From assembly GCA_029207755.1 (NCBI GenBank), contig JARCOQ010000012.1, positions 17,905,740 to 17,969,739 of the forward strand: a stretch of DNA of 64,000 nt, given 5' to 3'. Source of the stretch: Chamaea fasciata. Lineage: Eukaryota; Chordata; Aves; Passeriformes; Sylviidae. Positions 18,595 through 55,992 of this stretch are shown in pieces; position 1 is the first letter of the stretch; each line of letters begins with the position of its first letter. A model generated the notes under the pieces. It did not search any database. It saw nothing but the letters and a program-made list of their open reading frames with translations, and was not told the origin of the DNA. A program made the translations under genes and the position numbers.

Positions 18595-19181
18595 AGCGAG
18601 GGACTGCGCTGTCCCGATCTCCCAGTTTTGACTCTGACGGGGCAGCGGCTCAGCCCCGCCGGCGGAGCGCGCTGCCAGCCCTGGCTGCTGCGGGACAGCC
18701 CCGCTGCCAGCTGGCGCGGCAGGCGCTGCGGGTCCCGGGACACTCCGACAGCGCCTTCTGAGAGCCCCCGCCGCCGCCCTCACTCTGCATAACCCCCATC
18801 CCAGACAAACCCATCGGTCTGCTTGAGCCTTACGAGTAAACGCCGCCGACGCCTCAACAGCTCACCGCTCACCAGGAGAAGTCTTTAGGAAACCTCAGGA
18901 TTTTGCGTTCAGCCGAAGGACTGGGCAGAGCGGGCTTACTGCGACCGGCACCTCAGCACGGACCGTGTGTTACAGGGACAGCGACTGGACGAGCCGCGCC
19001 GTGACCGTGACCGCGCAACAGCGCGCTGTCCCCGCGCCGGTCCCGCACACCTGCCCGCGGAGCCGCGCATCGCCCCACCGCCGCCTGTCCCCGCGCCGGC
19101 CGGTGCCGAGCCCCCGTCCCGGCACAGTGGGGTGGAAGGGGCTGTCAGCGCTGCCGCGGGGGCGGGACGCGATGCCCTTAC

Positions 19182-19275
19182 CGATGATGATGGCACAGGC
19201 GCTCACCAGCCCGATCTCCTTCTTCAGCGCCACCCGCTCGGGGCCGCCGGGCGCGCGCTGCTCCCCGCCGGCCAT
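19182..19275 (-). CDS. SLC7A10: First coding exon of an SLC7-family (LAT/Asc-type) amino-acid transporter, partial gene
   Basis: Read on the minus strand from the ATG at 19275-19273, the exon encodes 31 residues and one base of codon 32. It begins MAGG and contains ERVALKKEIGL followed by VSACAIII; the split codon would be Gly. It ends G|GTAAGG, a strong splice donor (GT at 19181-19180). The motif is the conserved start of transmembrane helix 1 in light subunits of heteromeric amino-acid transporters, plasma-membrane exchangers that pair with SLC3A2. In this family the next exon begins the NIIGSG substrate-binding loop, which matches the phase-1 break. The MAG start, ERV and triple Ile favour SLC7A10 (Asc-1, small neutral amino acids and D-serine); VSAC favours SLC7A8 (LAT2), so the paralog assignment is tentative. 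No further exons are in the window, implying an intron 1 of at least 19 kb. CpG-island context supports a real first exon. Confidence 0.7.
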
Positions 19276-19970
19276 CGCTGCCCGCGCTGCTCTGCCCCGC
19301 GCCCCGCGCGCATGCGCCGCCCCGCGGGCCGGGGGCGGGGGGGCCGCGCCGCTCGGCGCCGGGGGGTGACGGGGGCGCGGAAGGTGCCCGGGACCCCTGA
19401 GGGCGGCCGTGCCTGAGGGCTGCGCCTCACTCGGGGCGCGGCCCCCTCGGACACCCCCCGTGTGTCCCCAGGAGCCGCAGCGGCGGCGCTGGGCGGCGGC
19501 GGCTAAACGCCGAGCGCTGGGCTCGGGCGTTCGGCGTGTCGGGCAGCGGGTCCTGCCCGCCGCCACGAGCCAGCCTGGCGCCGAACCGCGGCCCCCTGCC
19601 AGAGCCGGCCCCGCACGGGCTCCGCGGCCGCCGCCTCCTCTTGGGCTCTATAACTTGAGGTAGCGCGATAACGTAAAGGATAAACACTTCATTGCTTGTC
19701 ATCAGGACTGCCGGAGTTAAAACCAAGCCGGTAATGCCCAAGATTGGCTGGTTTCCGAGCTTTCAACGTTAGTTTCCCCGCTCTTTCTTCCCACGTTGTC
19801 CCACGCTTGTGAAGGGATCCAGCCCCAGCCCGTGCCCGCAGCAGCTCCTCCGCCCCGCCGGGGCTGCCTCCCGTGTCCCCACAGCCCCGCGGGGCTCGCA
19901 CCGCTGCCGGCTGCCGCCTGAGGTTACCAGCCGGGAGCTTGAGGAGAGAAACGTTCTCTTTCCTCACACA

Positions 19971-38253: not shown

Positions 38254-38312
38254 TGTGATGTGATGTGATGTGATGTGATGTGATGTGATGTGATGTGATG
38301 TGATGTGATGGA
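38254..38312. repeat. (TGATG)n pentanucleotide microsatellite
   Basis: Eleven uninterrupted TGATG units occupy 38256-38310. The absence of interruptions suggests an active, length-variable locus. Open frames crossing it on the minus strand (repeating SHHIT) are artefacts of the repeat. Confidence 0.95.
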
Positions 38313-49805: not shown

Positions 49806-49810
49806 GGAAC
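49806..49810. repeat. Left target-site duplication of the ERV (GGAAC)
   Basis: GGAAC directly precedes the TG of the 5' LTR and is repeated directly after the CA of the 3' LTR at 55988-55992. A 5-bp duplication is typical of class III (ERVL) and some gammaretroviral integrations. Confidence 0.92.
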
Positions 49811-50167
49811 TGTAAGAGACGGTCCGAAGATCCCTCATCTGCCTCACGACCATCGTCAAGGACAGAGACTGAAACCCCTAAAAGGGACTTTAAAATCTCA
49901 ATACAGGAGTTCTGGCCTGGCTGAGGTGGGATGTTGGCCAAGTGCTGCCTGCAGGTGTGTTCGATGGAAAAACCCAGCACCCATATCGGAACATCAGAAC
50001 CTGAGCAGAAACAATGGGCAAGTCACGGTGAAGTGACTGCGCCTGCTGACTTGTACTGGTTGACACTGTACCTGCTGACGACCGACTTGTTCTGGGTTCT
50101 CTAAATGAACACATTGCAATAATTTCCCCCACCTGTTTGGCCAACTGCCTGTCGCTTCGGAGAGGAC

Positions 50168-50175
50168 TATAAAAA
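50168..50175 (+). promoter_or_regulatory. TATA box of the 5' LTR
   Basis: TATAAAAA lies about 357 bases into the LTR and 187 bases before the AATAAA signal, the expected U3/R arrangement. Transcription should start about 25-30 bases downstream. The same site in the 3' LTR is at 55685-55692. Confidence 0.8.
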
Positions 50176-50354
50176 CCCTGGAGACCCCCGCTCACTTTTG
50201 TGATCACCCCACTGGAGAAACTCGCGTCTATAGGCATCTTCAAAAGCCTCGAGGACTCGACCCTCCATGTTGGTAGCTATAATCCCCTTCCCCTCTTTTC
50301 TGTTTTTCTAACTATTCTCTTTTTCTCTCCCTACTATCGCATTTGTTGGCACTA

Positions 50355-50360
50355 AATAAA
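50355..50360 (+). terminator. Polyadenylation signal AATAAA in the 5' LTR (twin in 3' LTR at 55872-55877)
   Basis: AATAAA is followed within about 40 bases by GT-rich sequence, as expected for the R/U5 boundary. The functional copy for proviral mRNA would be the one in the 3' LTR. Confidence 0.75.
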
Positions 50361-50476
50361 GGTGCATTTGTGATTGAGTAAACTGAGTTTGTCCCCCGCT
50401 GTGTCTTTTGCGCTCTGAGATCCCTAAAACGAACCATCACGAACCCCGCTTGTGTGAGCGGATCGTGACATTAAAT

Positions 50477-50494
50477 TGGCGTCACGGACAGGAT
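50477..50494 (+). other. Primer-binding site, tRNA-Ser type
   Basis: TGGCGTCACGGACAGGAT begins six bases after the 5' LTR. It is complementary to the 3' end of the vertebrate tRNA-Ser(CGA) isodecoder (ending ...GTGACG plus CCA) with one position that would form a G-U pair. Serine primers are used by the class III HERV-S group, which agrees with the ERVL-like pol remnant. The tRNA comparison is from general knowledge of tRNA sequences and should be aligned to the host tRNA set. Confidence 0.72.
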
Positions 50495-50906
50495 CTTGAT
50501 GGACAGAGGGGTTGCGGGTTTTATATAGTTTGTAACAGGGGAAGGACCCTCGTCTCAGCCGCACCTAGCACGCCACTTCGGTGAGCGCTGTTAGAAAGCA
50601 AGGGGGGCGAGGGAAAATTCCCGCAAACTGTATACACCCAGGCGTGTAGCACTCCCTGTCATCAGGATTTCACAAAAGGATCTCATTGTGCAAAAGATGG
50701 GACTGTAGTTAGGTTTTGGTTTTTTTTTGTGTTTTGGGCTGCTTGGTGTAGTTGAGGAGACAACCATTTGTAACTAAGGTGAACCTCCCAGGCAGTTTTG
50801 GTCTCCTCGCCCATTCCAGGGAAGCGAAGGGAAACACAGTTTTAGCTGTGCCTTTGGTGTAACTTTAAGCGTACCTCCCTGAGAGTGGTTTTGGTCCCTT
50901 CACAAA
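50495..50906 (+). other. ERV leader with imperfect internal duplication
   Basis: This is the untranslated leader between the primer-binding site and the gag start, presumably carrying packaging signals. A block at 50771-50810 (TAACTAAGGTGAACCTCCCA onward, ending TTTTGGTCTCC) recurs imperfectly at 50860-50902, a period of about 89 bp. AAGGTGAAC near 50776 could be a splice donor for a subgenomic env mRNA; this is inference. Confidence 0.6.
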
Positions 50907-53588
50907 ATGAGTGAAAAACATAAGAATGCATTTTATGCTTTGCTAGCAAAACATAGTGCTAGACCTTCTCCAGACGGAGAAAGGTGGGCACAGAATAATT
51001 GGTTTAACTTTAAAAACATTGTAGATAGAATATATTCTTTGCAACATGATGCTAGATACAAACTGGGCAGAAATAAAACCATTCTTTGCTCAGTTTTGGG
51101 GGCCTGTCTTTCGGCAGCCATAAAGACCCGTTCTGAACGGGTAAGTGAAGAAAAAGCAGTAATAGAATCCCTGCAAAATTTGGTAGAAGCTTTGCAAAAA
51201 CAATTAGAACAGGAAAGAAATCAGAATTATTTGCTGCAAATTTCTCTTGCAGAAGAGCGAAGCAAAAACTTAAAATCTGTAGATTCACCCACAGAAATAG
51301 AAGGAAAGGAGACATACAACATTAAACAAATATACCCTCAGAAAGAATTAGTACACATGCAAAATTGTGGGGAACACTGTTGCTCCAACTTGAGACCTCT
51401 CATTAAAACAGAATATAATTATATAAATGAAGAGGATCATGATCCCCACAAAACCACCAAAGAAATACCATACACGGCCACTGAATTAGCTAAATTAAAG
51501 AAAAAATACTTCCGCCTCCCTAGTGAATCAGAGATGGAGTATGTTTTTAGAGTTTCCCTCACAGGGGGCGACCAAATTAAATTAAGTGAACAAGAAGCAA
51601 GTGGCTATTGGGGACATGGAGTTTTCTTAACAACAGGAAATACACGTGCTCCATGGTCCCTGACACAGTGTGCAGCTCACTGGGCAGGGGGGTTAAACCC
51701 CCTTGAGAGGGGCGACCCTCTGGCAATAGTCGGCACCTCAGACCAACTCCTAGGAAACATACACAAAGCTGCATGCTTGCAAATGATACAGGAAAGAAAA
51801 TTAATCTCTGGCTGTGAGTCACCAATGCAACAGCCTGTCAAACCTGAGATTATGACCCCTTTAATTCGAGGTTTGCCAGAGTTTCTTAAACCAACAGCAA
51901 TTCTTCAAAAAACAATGGCATCTATCTCTCCGGTAGATAGACTTGAAAGATTTCTTAGACATACAAGAGATCAAACTGGTTCCACTGACTCCACTGACTC
52001 CCCACCTTTTACAACTTCTAGCACACAATATAACAGCAGTCATAAACTTTGGACATGGAGTGAGGTAGCAGAGGAGTTAATAAGTTACAGTAGAAAATAT
52101 GGACCAGTGAAGGACTCAGAGGACAAACCAGAAAAACCCAGAGGAGTCAGGCACATTGCTTCTCCTAATGAAAAATCAGAAAAGGGAAAACAAATTTCCA
52201 ACCGGCAGCAACTGTGGTCACTAGGACTGAAAAGGGGAGTGCCGCAAAAAATTATGAATAAATTGCTTTATGATAAATTGGCTAAAATAATTTCTGATTG
52301 GCCCTGTCCCAAACCCATTGTGTTGGAATCATCCAACCAACAACCCAGTGCACCTCCTCTTCCACAAACCTTGGGCAACAAGCCACAGCACTCCCTAGCA
52401 CAAGTTTTAAACAATGAGACACAGCAAGTGGGGGGTGTTCAACAGAAAATAACTTCCCACTTAGAAAGCCTTAGTTTGCAAATCCCCTCAGAAAAAATAC
52501 AAAAACCTTCTCAAGAAGTAAAATTTTTGGGTATCTGGTGGAAAAGAGGTATGACATGCATCCCACCTGACACCCTAACCTCCTTAGATCAAATTAAAGT
52601 GCCTGAGTCCAGGAAAGATTTACAGCATGCCTTGAGATTATTAGTGTTTTGGGGAAAACACATTGCAGATTTTTCAATTTTTGCCAAACCTCTTTATGAT
52701 TTGTTAAGAAAAGGAGTAAAATGGGACTGGAGCCCTTCTCAGGAAGAAGCATTACAATTGTTGATTTTTGGAGCCACAGCTCATCAGGCCCTAGGCCCTA
52801 TCCACCCAACAGATCCTTTTCAGGTAGAATGGGGATTTGCTTCCTCAGGGTTGTCAGTACACATATGGCAGTGGGGTCCTGAGGGTCCGACATGGCCTGC
52901 TGGTTTTTATTCCCGTGGTTTCAGAGATGCTGAAAAGAGGTATAATACCTGGGGAAAAGGCTTGTTTGTGGTTAGCCTAGCTCTCCTAGAAGTAGAGAAG
53001 ATTGTACAACAACAACCAGTTGTTTGGAGAGGGCCTTTCCAAGTTTTTAAGTCAGTCACTACTGGGACTCCCCCATCTGACGGGGTGGCCCAAACAGCCT
53101 CAGTAAGAAAGTGGTATGCTCAGATTGAACATTATTGTAACATCTCAATAACCGAAGGAGCTGTGAAAAAACTGGCAGTACAAGAAGCAGAAAACTTGGA
53201 TAGCATCCAAAACAAACCTGCCTCAGTCATTACCCCTCCCTTTTCCCCCGAACAGTCAGCAAGTCCTTGGTTTACTGATACTTTTCCTTTTAGCCCAACA
53301 GCTCCAAGCATAGTTCCCTCACAAAGAGGACCAAATGATCCCGAAAATCCAGTTCATTACCCTGGACAACCTGTTTTGGTGGACCTCCCCACAGAGGGAG
53401 AGGTACCACTAGTGCTAAAACCCCCTCTGAATAAATACACATGGGTAACCTTTGATGCTCTAGAGAAAGAGTATCGAATAAATGCACACTGGAAAATTTC
53501 CATCATTCTAACTTTCTGCCTTCTGGTGGCAGATTCTGTTGTACTTACTTTTTGCAGGAGAACTCCGAGGGACATGAAGGCCATATAA
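50907..53588 (+). CDS. In-frame Gag-Pol fusion ORF of the young ERV, 893 aa, uninterrupted
   Basis: The ATG has A at -3. Residues 1-about 520 are Gag-like: no Gly2 myristoylation site, a predicted coiled coil at about 78-122, a capsid-like block at about 190-300, and a hydrophilic linker. No CCHC zinc knuckle is present. The frame then runs straight into Pol at about residue 536 (KFLGIWWKRG), giving the RT thumb (about 536-610) and connection (about 610-765). An RNase H start follows (SPWFTD, 786-791, with the first catalytic Asp), then an integrase C-terminal domain (about 818-862). The last 30 residues include a hydrophobic stretch (864-883), possibly the start of env. Missing are the protease active site, the RT fingers/palm with its YxDD motif, most of RNase H, and the integrase zinc-binding and catalytic core. 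The product could act at most as a structural protein. That two large pol deletions both keep the frame suggests the fusion is tolerated or selected. No frameshift site separates gag and pol. Confidence 0.85.
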   Translation: MSEKHKNAFYALLAKHSARPSPDGERWAQNNWFNFKNIVDRIYSLQHDARYKLGRNKTILCSVLGACLSAAIKTRSERVSEEKAVIESLQNLVEALQKQLEQERNQNYLLQISLAEERSKNLKSVDSPTEIEGKETYNIKQIYPQKELVHMQNCGEHCCSNLRPLIKTEYNYINEEDHDPHKTTKEIPYTATELAKLKKKYFRLPSESEMEYVFRVSLTGGDQIKLSEQEASGYWGHGVFLTTGNTRAPWSLTQCAAHWAGGLNPLERGDPLAIVGTSDQLLGNIHKAACLQMIQERKLISGCESPMQQPVKPEIMTPLIRGLPEFLKPTAILQKTMASISPVDRLERFLRHTRDQTGSTDSTDSPPFTTSSTQYNSSHKLWTWSEVAEELISYSRKYGPVKDSEDKPEKPRGVRHIASPNEKSEKGKQISNRQQLWSLGLKRGVPQKIMNKLLYDKLAKIISDWPCPKPIVLESSNQQPSAPPLPQTLGNKPQHSLAQVLNNETQQVGGVQQKITSHLESLSLQIPSEKIQKPSQEVKFLGIWWKRGMTCIPPDTLTSLDQIKVPESRKDLQHALRLLVFWGKHIADFSIFAKPLYDLLRKGVKWDWSPSQEEALQLLIFGATAHQALGPIHPTDPFQVEWGFASSGLSVHIWQWGPEGPTWPAGFYSRGFRDAEKRYNTWGKGLFVVSLALLEVEKIVQQQPVVWRGPFQVFKSVTTGTPPSDGVAQTASVRKWYAQIEHYCNISITEGAVKKLAVQEAENLDSIQNKPASVITPPFSPEQSASPWFTDTFPFSPTAPSIVPSQRGPNDPENPVHYPGQPVLVDLPTEGEVPLVLKPPLNKYTWVTFDALEKEYRINAHWKISIILTFCLLVADSVVLTFCRRTPRDMKAI

Positions 53589-54815
53589 ACCATGATAAAT
53601 ATTTTAAATTGGGAATTTTTAGAAGTATTAATGAAAAAATTGGCTGCCAAAACTAGGGATTTGACCAAATTACAACAACCATTGTAGTTATCCTTATTGG
53701 CTTTGGGAACACATCAGTGGTTGCTATCAAACATACTACCAAATTGGGAAAAAGTGAATGTGAATGATCACAAAATGATAATTGATGCTCTTGGTGCTAC
53801 ACAAAACAATGTTTCTTTGGCTCTTAGCTGCATCCAGGCACAGCTGTGGATGCAAACAGTTGTTGCCTCAATCATAAGGGAAGGAGAAGAAGGCAGTTTT
53901 CCTACTGAAATTTAGAAAATAATTTGAGACAATGCAAATGATTTTGAAAAGGAATTCCAATCCTGGTAGAAATTAGTAAACTTTACCTATAACCCCAATA
54001 CCAACACAGTTACAGCTTTTGTGTTAACCATATGTAATGCCTCTGTACACTCGATATTTCCTATCATTGCATTAGGACTGAATCATGATGGAGCTATTCT
54101 CTATGCTTTTGAGCACAGAGAATGGGCCCGTCAAAATGGCGAGAGATGGCAAACTGTCAATTTAGACTCATGTATTGTTCGGGAACAGCAAGGTTTCATC
54201 TGTGAGAGTAATGCAATCATAGCTCAAGACATTTGTCTGGACACTGAACAAAATATCTGCCACTTTAAAATTCACCCTAACCAAACTTCTGAAGTAGTGC
54301 TAATATGTATAGGCAATGGGTGTGTATGCTTTAGAACTGCTTGTAATGTAGTGTTTGTAGAAGAAATAGTAGTGAATCTTAAGAATCACTCAAATTTTTG
54401 TATTTGTAACTTTACCACAACTACAAGATGTGACTTTTCTTACTCAGCCCCAGTTACCTTTTATCACCTTTTACAATCTGATTATACAGTGATGCACAAA
54501 TTATTGCCTCCCCCTATTGGGATAAATCTTACTTTGGTGAAGCAATTGTTGCTTCATCAGGATTTAATTGAGATTTTGAAAAAGATCAAGAAAAACAGAC
54601 AGAAAGCCCTGGTAACTATTCATTACAAAGTGAGAAAAATACATCATGTCATGGAAAGGGTAAGAAAAGATGCTGAACACAGGTGGTAGGATACCCTTTT
54701 TGGGTAGTCACCTACTGCCACAGGTATCCTGAACAAAGTGTGTTATCCCATTGTTGTTTTTTTTTGATTTTGGTTTTGATTGGTTTTGTCTTATCAGTCA
54801 TTTTATACATCCTAA
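53589..54815 (+). pseudogene. Broken env-like region of the ERV
   Basis: The reading frame used by the upstream ORF stays protein-like for another 1.2 kb but is cut by stops at 53586 (TAA), 53685, 53913 (TAG), 53925 (TGA), 53967, 54687, 54705 (TAG), 54765 and 54777 (TGA), ending at 54813 (TAA). The longest open pieces are 53688-53915 and 53970-54689. Features visible in pieces: a heptad-like helical segment near 53790-53860, several cysteines and N-linked glycosylation sequons near 54270-54430, and a hydrophobic, anchor-like segment at about 54740-54810. These suit a retroviral envelope glycoprotein, mainly its C-terminal part, but I cannot name its closest family. The pieces share one frame, so decay is by point mutation rather than indels. 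The region cannot make a full envelope as it stands. Confidence 0.6.
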
Positions 54816-55327
54816 ATTGAAAAATGATGAAAAAGTTGACACACTTGGCATTTCTAATGGAAGCACACAGTTTAATCAATACCCCTTTTGCAAAAGACCC
54901 TCCCAAAGTTATTGACACGAGATGTACTACCCTAACAGTAAAAATTAGGCCTCCAACAGCAGATTAATTTGAAAATGTTAATTGCTTGTTTTGATTATTG
55001 TTATTTGTTTTAATTATGTTATATTGTAATCAAAATTAAGCTTTTGTTTGAAAATTGTTATAACTTTAAGAAATTTTATGATTTGTTCTGATTATTTTGA
55101 TGAAATTGTTTTAATCAATATTGATTGATTTTGTTTTGTTTCTATTTCCTTTTCCTATTTCTCTCTCTCTCTCTCTCTCTCCCTCTCTCTCTCTTTCACA
55201 CACACTCTCTACTGTCCCTGTTTTTTCCGGGATATGCTACTGACATGGACGAGTCCTGAAGACTTCGCAAGACTACGGAACCCTACAGAAGGAGCTCTCT
55301 TGACGACAATCGTGAGTCACGGGGTGG
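54816..55327 (+). other. ERV 3' untranslated segment before the 3' LTR
   Basis: AT-rich, T- and TTGATT-rich sequence up to about 55150, then a CT microsatellite, then about 130 bp of mixed sequence. The bases directly before the 3' LTR (ACGGGGTGG, 55319-55327) would have to serve as the polypurine tract, which is short and interrupted by C and T. No coding content recognised. Confidence 0.6.
55161..55195 (+). repeat. (CT)n microsatellite inside the ERV
   Basis: A nearly pure CT repeat of about 35 bases followed by a CA-rich patch. It lies upstream of the 3' LTR and may vary in length between copies of the family. Confidence 0.92.
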
Positions 55328-55987
55328 TGTAAGAGACGGTCCGAAGATCCCTCATCTGCCTCACGACCATCGTCAAGGACAGAGACTGAAACCCCTAAAA
55401 GGGACTTTAAAATCTCAATACAGGAGTTCTGGCCTGGCTGAGGTGGGATGTTGGCCAAGTGCTGCCTGCAGGTGTGTTCGATGGAAAAACCCAGCACCCA
55501 TATCGGAACATCAGAACCTGAGCAGAAACAATGGGCAAGTCACGGTGAAGTGACTGCGCCTGCTGACTTGTACTGGTTGACACTGTACCTGCTGACGACC
55601 GACTTGTTCTGGGTTCTCTAAATGAACACATTGCAATAATTTCCCCCACCTGTTTGGCCAACTGCCTGTCGCTTCGGAGAGGACTATAAAAACCCTGGAG
55701 ACCCCCGCTCACTTTTGTGATCACCCCACTGGAGAAACTCGCGTCTATAGGCATCTTCAAAAGCCTCGAGGACTCGACCCTCCATGTTGGTAGCTATAAT
55801 CCCCTTCCCCTCTTTTCTGTTTTTCTAACTATTCTCTTTTTCTCTCCCTACTATCGCATTTGTTGGCACTAAATAAAGGTGCATTTGTGATTGAGTAAAC
55901 TGAGTTTGTCCCCCGCTGTGTCTTTTGCGCTCTGAGATCCCTAAAACGAACCATCACGAACCCCGCTTGTGTGAGCGGATCGTGACA
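55328..55987 (+). repeat. 3' LTR of the young ERV (660 bp)
   Basis: Same sequence as 49811-50470, offset by 5517 bases, with no difference seen by eye. TATA at 55685-55692 and AATAAA at 55872-55877. Because the LTRs are copied from one template at integration, this identity indicates a very recent event (or recent gene conversion). Confidence 0.96.
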
Positions 55988-55992
55988 GGAAC
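55988..55992. repeat. Right target-site duplication of the ERV (GGAAC)
   Basis: Exact copy of 49806-49810, directly after the CA end of the 3' LTR. Confidence 0.92.

Follow-up and report, generated by a model that had tools for sequence, protein, structure and literature searches.

We analysed a window of 64,000 nucleotides from contig JARCOQ010000012.1 of Chamaea fasciata, whose coordinates are used throughout, and focused on an open reading frame (ORF) of 893 codons at 50907-53588 of the plus strand. This ORF lies in a complete provirus (49811-55987) with a long terminal repeat (LTR) at both ends, which is young and, as its proteins indicate, a songbird member of the avian Soprano (ENS-1/ENS-3) group. 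The best explanation, in which we have moderate confidence, is that it is a non-autonomous ENS-type provirus that lost its enzymes by two internal deletions and spread with the enzymes of an intact relative. The deletions would have removed the protease, RNase H, the N-terminal and core domains of integrase and, from the reverse transcriptase (RT), the fingers and the palm that holds the active site, and their product would be a whole Gag in frame with the RT thumb and connection and the integrase C-terminal domain.

Since the LTR promoter, the polyadenylation signal, the primer-binding site and Gag are retained, the RNA of the element could be packaged, reverse-transcribed and integrated with the enzymes of an intact relative. 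The element would contribute RNA and Gag and borrow the enzymes, in the manner of ENS-1; Gag would be the part under selection, and the Pol leftover would be mostly a passenger whose frame is open by chance. We infer that the enzymes were supplied in trans, that the deletions were already present in the parent copy and that sister copies exist.

The 893-codon frame and the provirus around it

The ORF starts with ATG and has no internal stop. It is more than a chance frame, since nearly its full length is homologous to other avian proteins. A protein search yielded the 71 relatives used in the comparisons below, some of which are only fragments. A sequence-only reading of this DNA had described just such an uninterrupted frame joining Gag, RT thumb/connection and integrase C-terminus, and in this it was right.

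Gag is essentially whole, as it runs alongside the babbler protein P0002 (514 residues). The RT leftover is matched by Pfam RT_RNaseH_2 (3.4e-9) and by chain A of PDB entry 4mh8 ('Reverse transcriptase/ribonuclease H p80', which we take to be of the murine leukaemia virus (MLV) type), with residues 518-714 of the query corresponding to 227-422 of the chain (E 2.1e-6). At the second junction the gap amounts to 355-356 residues against three pols that have RT, RNase H and integrase core, namely P0021 (359 to 714), P0027 (561 to 916) and P0029 (595 to 951). The hydrophobic end of the ORF lies beyond the point where these intact pols stop, and it is encoded by a pyrimidine-rich tract 5' of a splice-acceptor-like AG. 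None of the seven matches to residues 700-893, all of them among the 71 relatives, has the same second junction (P0042 was judged by its match coordinates only).

A pattern scan of the frame found no CCHC knuckle, no Y-x-DD and no [LIVF]D[ST]G, and the alignment to intact pols agrees with it: the protease, the RT active site, the integrase core and RNase H apart from the motif WFTD are gone. The earlier statement that zinc knuckle, protease motif, YxDD and integrase core are lacking is borne out, and the 'sliver of RNase H' reported with it is present, reduced to WFTD. Regarding the zinc knuckle, the CCHC pattern occurs in none of the 71 relatives, fragments included; its absence therefore looks like a family trait, and the idea of a loss through the deletions was rejected. 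Two structures were predicted, both of low confidence (mean predicted local distance difference test (pLDDT) 52.3 and 55.5) and too poor to serve for a fold search. With regard to the N-terminal coiled coil of ENS-type Gags, a single long helix is predicted at residues 56-123, in a poor, low-confidence model (block pLDDT 51-83 in this part).

Both LTRs are 660 bp long with TG...CA ends, both carry the TATAAAA and AATAAA motifs, and they are identical at 660 of 660 aligned positions. The substitution rate of birds is near 2e-9 per site and year, and as none of the 660 positions has changed, the insertion probably took place less than about 1 million years ago. The stretch that follows the 5' LTR like a primer-binding site presumably resembles tRNA-Ser(CGA). 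The window contains no N, and when scanned against Rfam and for tRNA genes it gave no matches. No relative of the element was matched in the viral contig and genome contig collections, nor was a 22-mer of the LTR in the viral contig collection. The features of the provirus are collected in Table 1.

Table 1. Features of the provirus and its flanks, in window coordinates (aa, residues of the 893-codon ORF)
Feature	Position	Strand	Evidence or remarks
Target-site duplication, left copy	49806..49810	.	GGAAC, 5 bp
5' LTR	49811..50470	+	660 bp, TG...CA; TATAAAA at 50168, AATAAA at 50355
Primer-binding-site-like stretch	50477..50494	+	Sequence, after 5' LTR
Splice-donor-like GTGAGC in leader	50581..50586	+	Pattern match alone
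Gag, aa 1-507, ENS-1/ERNI type, PLIKTEY at aa 164-170	50907..52427	+	Homology to relatives
Junction 1, Gag to RT just past YxDD	52427..52428	+	Alignment; four residues before the end of P0002
RT leftover (thumb, connection), aa 508-791, up to first RNase H motif WFTD	52428..53279	+	Pfam, PDB, relatives
Junction 2, RNase H start to integrase C-terminus, near aa 792-794	53280..53288	+	About 355 residues gone
Integrase C-terminal domain, aa 795-864	53289..53498	+	Match to integrase C-termini of P0021, P0027, P0029
Hydrophobic C-terminal stretch, aa 864-882	53496..53552	+	19-residue mean hydropathy 2.35
Putative splice-acceptor-like AG after pyrimidine tract, upstream of env-like region	53556..53557	+	Sequence; inferred
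Env-like remnant, broken	53589..54689	+	Four in-frame stops before 54020; more stops from 54687 on; then apparent frameshift
3' LTR	55328..55987	+	Identical to 5' LTR
Target-site duplication, right copy	55988..55992	.	GGAAC

ENS-type relatives, other fusions and rates of change

All the named proteins among the relatives are from birds. Gag is 75-76% identical to the songbird Gags P0002 (Cyanoderma) and P0003 (Anomalospiza) and 46% identical to P0048, a protein that carries four chicken ENS-1 tags given in PMC3958431 (peptide 3807, PLIKTEY, GLPTVRLE and ESVKVTQ). The pattern P[LV][IVL]KTEY is present in 33 of the 71 relatives, some of them without Gag. The Pol leftover is of ENS-3 type as judged by pairwise identity, which is 36-40% (P0068) and 39% (P0070) to the rows named 'pol-like protein ENS-3'. 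The HP1 box GLPTVRLE of chicken ENS-1 is a functional motif and not a mark of the clade; no P-x-V-x-L occurs anywhere in our frame, and the aligned stretch differs. As the box is missing here, the link of ERNI to HP1γ published for chicken (PMC3958431) is not transferable to this element.

According to PMC10996621, ERNI is the Gag of ENS-3 (Soprano) or of its non-autonomous variant ENS-1. It belongs to a recently active endogenous retrovirus (ERV) and plays a part in the development of the chick, and the ENS-3 RT clade was placed as sister to ERV-L. The chicken, as described there, pairs a non-autonomous, Gag-coding ENS-1 with an autonomous ENS-3. The Chamaea element is like them in its Gag type, in PLIKTEY and in being a young LTR-flanked copy. 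However, its Gag is fused to Pol remnants and the HP1 box of ENS-1 is not conserved, and the likeness was judged by the proteins. Searches of the open-licence literature, by titles and abstract openings, showed no paper in which a songbird ENS-type element has Gag and Pol fused.

In-frame fusions of Gag with a part of Pol, with other joins, make up at least 8 of the 71 relatives (P0001, P0006, P0007, P0009, P0015, P0018, P0035 and P0065); two of them, P0009 and P0065, stem from contigs of 2,480 and 4,658 bases. The protein database records open frames only, therefore this count speaks for frequent joins and is no sign of their being favoured. The barn swallow protein P0001, which stands for a cluster of 26 sequences, has a whole Gag followed by RT thumb/connection and the integrase C-terminus, and its hydrophobic end is homologous to ours; the swallow proteins P0016 and P0025 have the same layout with partial Gag. 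In these three both junctions differ from those of the Chamaea element: the swallow keeps YIDD, loses the Gag C-terminus and joins earlier at the second junction. In P0035 (an owl gene model, from a cluster of 14) and P0065 the integrase C-terminus comes directly after Gag. A general selective retention of the integrase C-terminus was considered and rejected, as 11 of the 71 relatives carry it and other fusions keep other parts of Pol, so that no bias is apparent.

Regarding the rates of change, the element is altered at 2 of 89 otherwise invariant Gag sites (0-13 in 12 other sequences). In relative-rate comparisons its private Gag changes show no significant difference against P0003, P0004, P0005 and P0001 (p 0.22-1.0); P0002 has more of them than the element (p 0.0008-0.008). 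For invariant sites of the RT leftover the figure is 8 of 103 (0-5 in ten further pols, which include partial ones and exclude P0001), and its private changes are 1.5-2.4 times those of two intact relatives. The counts are 24-31 against 10-18 in P0022 or P0024 (four outgroups, 8 tests, p 0.003-0.21, 6 of 8 below 0.05), and 22-28 against 10-15 when ten residues are removed at each end (8 tests, p 0.024-0.32, 2 of 8 below 0.05). A stronger acceleration is seen in the RT leftover of P0001, with 32-40 private changes against 9-15 (p 0.0001-0.008). By these counts Gag seems to be under constraint and the RT leftover seems relaxed, with modest significance. The functional chimeric protein proposed earlier would accordingly stand for its Gag part and fall for its RT part, with the same modest significance.

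With no change in 660 LTR positions, few of the RT replacements can have arisen in place and most should date from the parent copy. Replacements that predate the insertion suggest, again at modest significance, that the pol of the parent copy was already useless and that enzymes came in trans. A songbird element that keeps Gag with a relaxing RT leftover, together with the swallow parallel, would, if true, extend the chicken pairing of autonomous and non-autonomous elements to songbirds.

Alternative explanations and comparable elements

Several observations weigh against a non-autonomous element that spread with borrowed enzymes. The relaxation signal of RT has the same direction throughout, but it is of modest strength and depends on the outgroup. 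The contrast with Gag is not sharp, since the private Gag changes are 31-36 against 22-26 in P0004 (p 0.25-0.30), and at the invariant sites 2 of 89 against 8 of 103 gives a Fisher p = 0.11. For P0001, itself a fusion, the RT count is 10 altered sites of 105 invariant ones. For the integrase C-terminus the counts are mixed, 10-16 against 4-6 with P0027 but 9-10 against 4-11 with P0021. Furthermore, a faster-evolving intact partner in the host would mimic the RT signal. As to the swallow proteins, they come from gene models in which predicted introns may account for the joins, and their junctions are different ones.

These points leave room for a full-length ENS-3-type element that was copied by its own enzymes and suffered its deletions by template switching then or soon after insertion, with no family behind it and a frame kept open by recency and luck. 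We consider this a possible explanation, although a rather unlikely one. The identical LTRs leave little time for stops, and, as said, Gag and the Pol leftover do not contrast sharply in rate. The sequence-only reading had stressed that both deletions keep the frame, which they do; nevertheless, this carries modest weight. TguERVL2 of estrildid finches is a recently active songbird ERVL with two long ORFs that share one reading frame and with intact enzyme domains (PMC6523648 section 3.4). Should gag and pol lie in one frame here too, any deletion of a multiple of three across the Gag stop would yield such a fusion, and the chance that both deletions stay in frame would be about 1/9. In addition, the other in-frame joins in at least 8 of the 71 relatives argue that joins are easily made, with the reminder that the database shows open ones only. 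What speaks for a deletion older than the insertion is that the private changes of the RT leftover at conserved sites mostly predate it, and this signal is modest.

The opposite possibility is that the chimera itself is functional, its Pol-derived tail being kept because it aids its own RNA in cis, as in the mouse element IAP 1Δ1, hampers an intact partner, or has a host role like that of ERNI. One frame has been kept through both deletions and the tail, the second deletion lies near domain borders, and the barn swallow models resemble this layout closely, down to a hydrophobic end that is homologous; moreover, the fusion of IAP 1Δ1 can act in cis (PMC6466679 and PMC7411935). However, intact pols evolve more slowly than the RT leftover, which counts against usefulness of the tail, and the open frame counts for it weakly: with a nonsense/missense ratio of 0.084 in the RT leftover, about twenty neutral replacements would give one or two stops, so that the lack of stops carries little weight. 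The hydrophobic end resembles a read-through of the pyrimidine tract of a splice acceptor, the GLPTVRLE HP1 box has no match in the frame, and both structure models are of low confidence. We therefore regard a functional tail as improbable. A broader proposal goes further, that songbird ENS-type elements repeatedly yield lineages without enzymes, whose Gag has acquired a Pol-derived arm that is itself used, in place of the absent nucleic-acid-binding knuckles, for a preference of the RNA for the partner's enzymes, or for poisoning the particles of the partner. The arm would consist of the RT connection, the integrase C-terminal domain and the hydrophobic end, the last possibly inserting into membranes. 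This proposal is speculative and we give it equally little credence.

It is very improbable that the fused frame is an assembly artefact due to the collapse of several copies. Young multi-copy ERVs are in general difficult to assemble, but the window has no N, the LTR pair and the target duplication are perfect, and the frame is clean.

Among the published elements, we take IAP 1Δ1 as the nearest case by mechanism, by analogy. There a deletion creates a gag-pol fusion, Gag and Pol are required in trans and the fusion protein helps in cis, as stated in PMC6466679 and PMC7411935. The Chamaea element is alike in that an internal gag-pol deletion has led to one fused frame without an enzyme set of its own, and the need for Gag and Pol in trans, so described for IAP 1Δ1, is the model that we propose here. 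It is unlike in that IAP is class II and the Chamaea element ERV-L-like, that Gag is whole here and that the integrase C-terminus is kept past the second deletion. Judged by its relatives and by published placement, the element does not fit the IAP family proper, a class II ERV: the named relatives are all from birds, two are called 'pol-like protein ENS-3', and the ENS-3 RT is placed as sister to ERV-L (PMC10996621). The likeness to TguERVL2, which is one of description, lies in a recently active songbird ERVL-like element; unlike ours, TguERVL2 keeps its enzyme domains.

With MaLR the element shares that it is non-autonomous and class III-related. An avian counterpart of MaLR, as had been proposed, is nevertheless rejected, because the element has a whole Gag and Pol remnants whereas MaLR has mere traces of retroviral coding sequence; ENS-1/ENS-3 and IAP 1Δ1 are closer. 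Of the wider proposal of a non-autonomous ERVL derivative with enzymes in trans, the enzyme-less, Gag-coding, ERV-L-like and recent nature of the element holds, and the supply in trans is probable. The comparison with IAP 1Δ1 asks whether a fusion of Gag with Pol remnants favours spread or is just the easiest deletion in a shared gag/pol frame.

The env-like region and other parts of the window

After the stop of the 893-codon ORF an env-like region continues in the same frame. Its open piece, 54021-54686, is related to 39 protein rows, which are avian or unnamed. A Pfam scan of six of these 39 (P0072, P0075, P0087, P0079, P0109 and P0082) found none at the cut-off, and the remnant and its relatives are possibly an unclassified avian Env-like family. 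Comparison with P0072 points to a frameshift beyond 54687. We also considered the open fused frame as proof of selection, with the broken env-like region as a control, and rejected this as undecisive, since env could decay while pol still worked. Among the relatives, P0031 (Falco peregrinus) is a Gag gene model whose C-terminus is like the env-like region, possibly a predicted gag-env splice.

Elsewhere in the window, a G+C-rich segment at 18970-19566 has overlapping ORFs on both strands and is probably a host promoter with a first exon. Its minus-strand frame includes VALKKEIGLVSACAIIIG, which we take to resemble the start of SLC7-type amino-acid transporters. Finally, a perfect tandem repeat of the 5-base unit TGTGA, with 11.4 copies, lies at 38254-38310.
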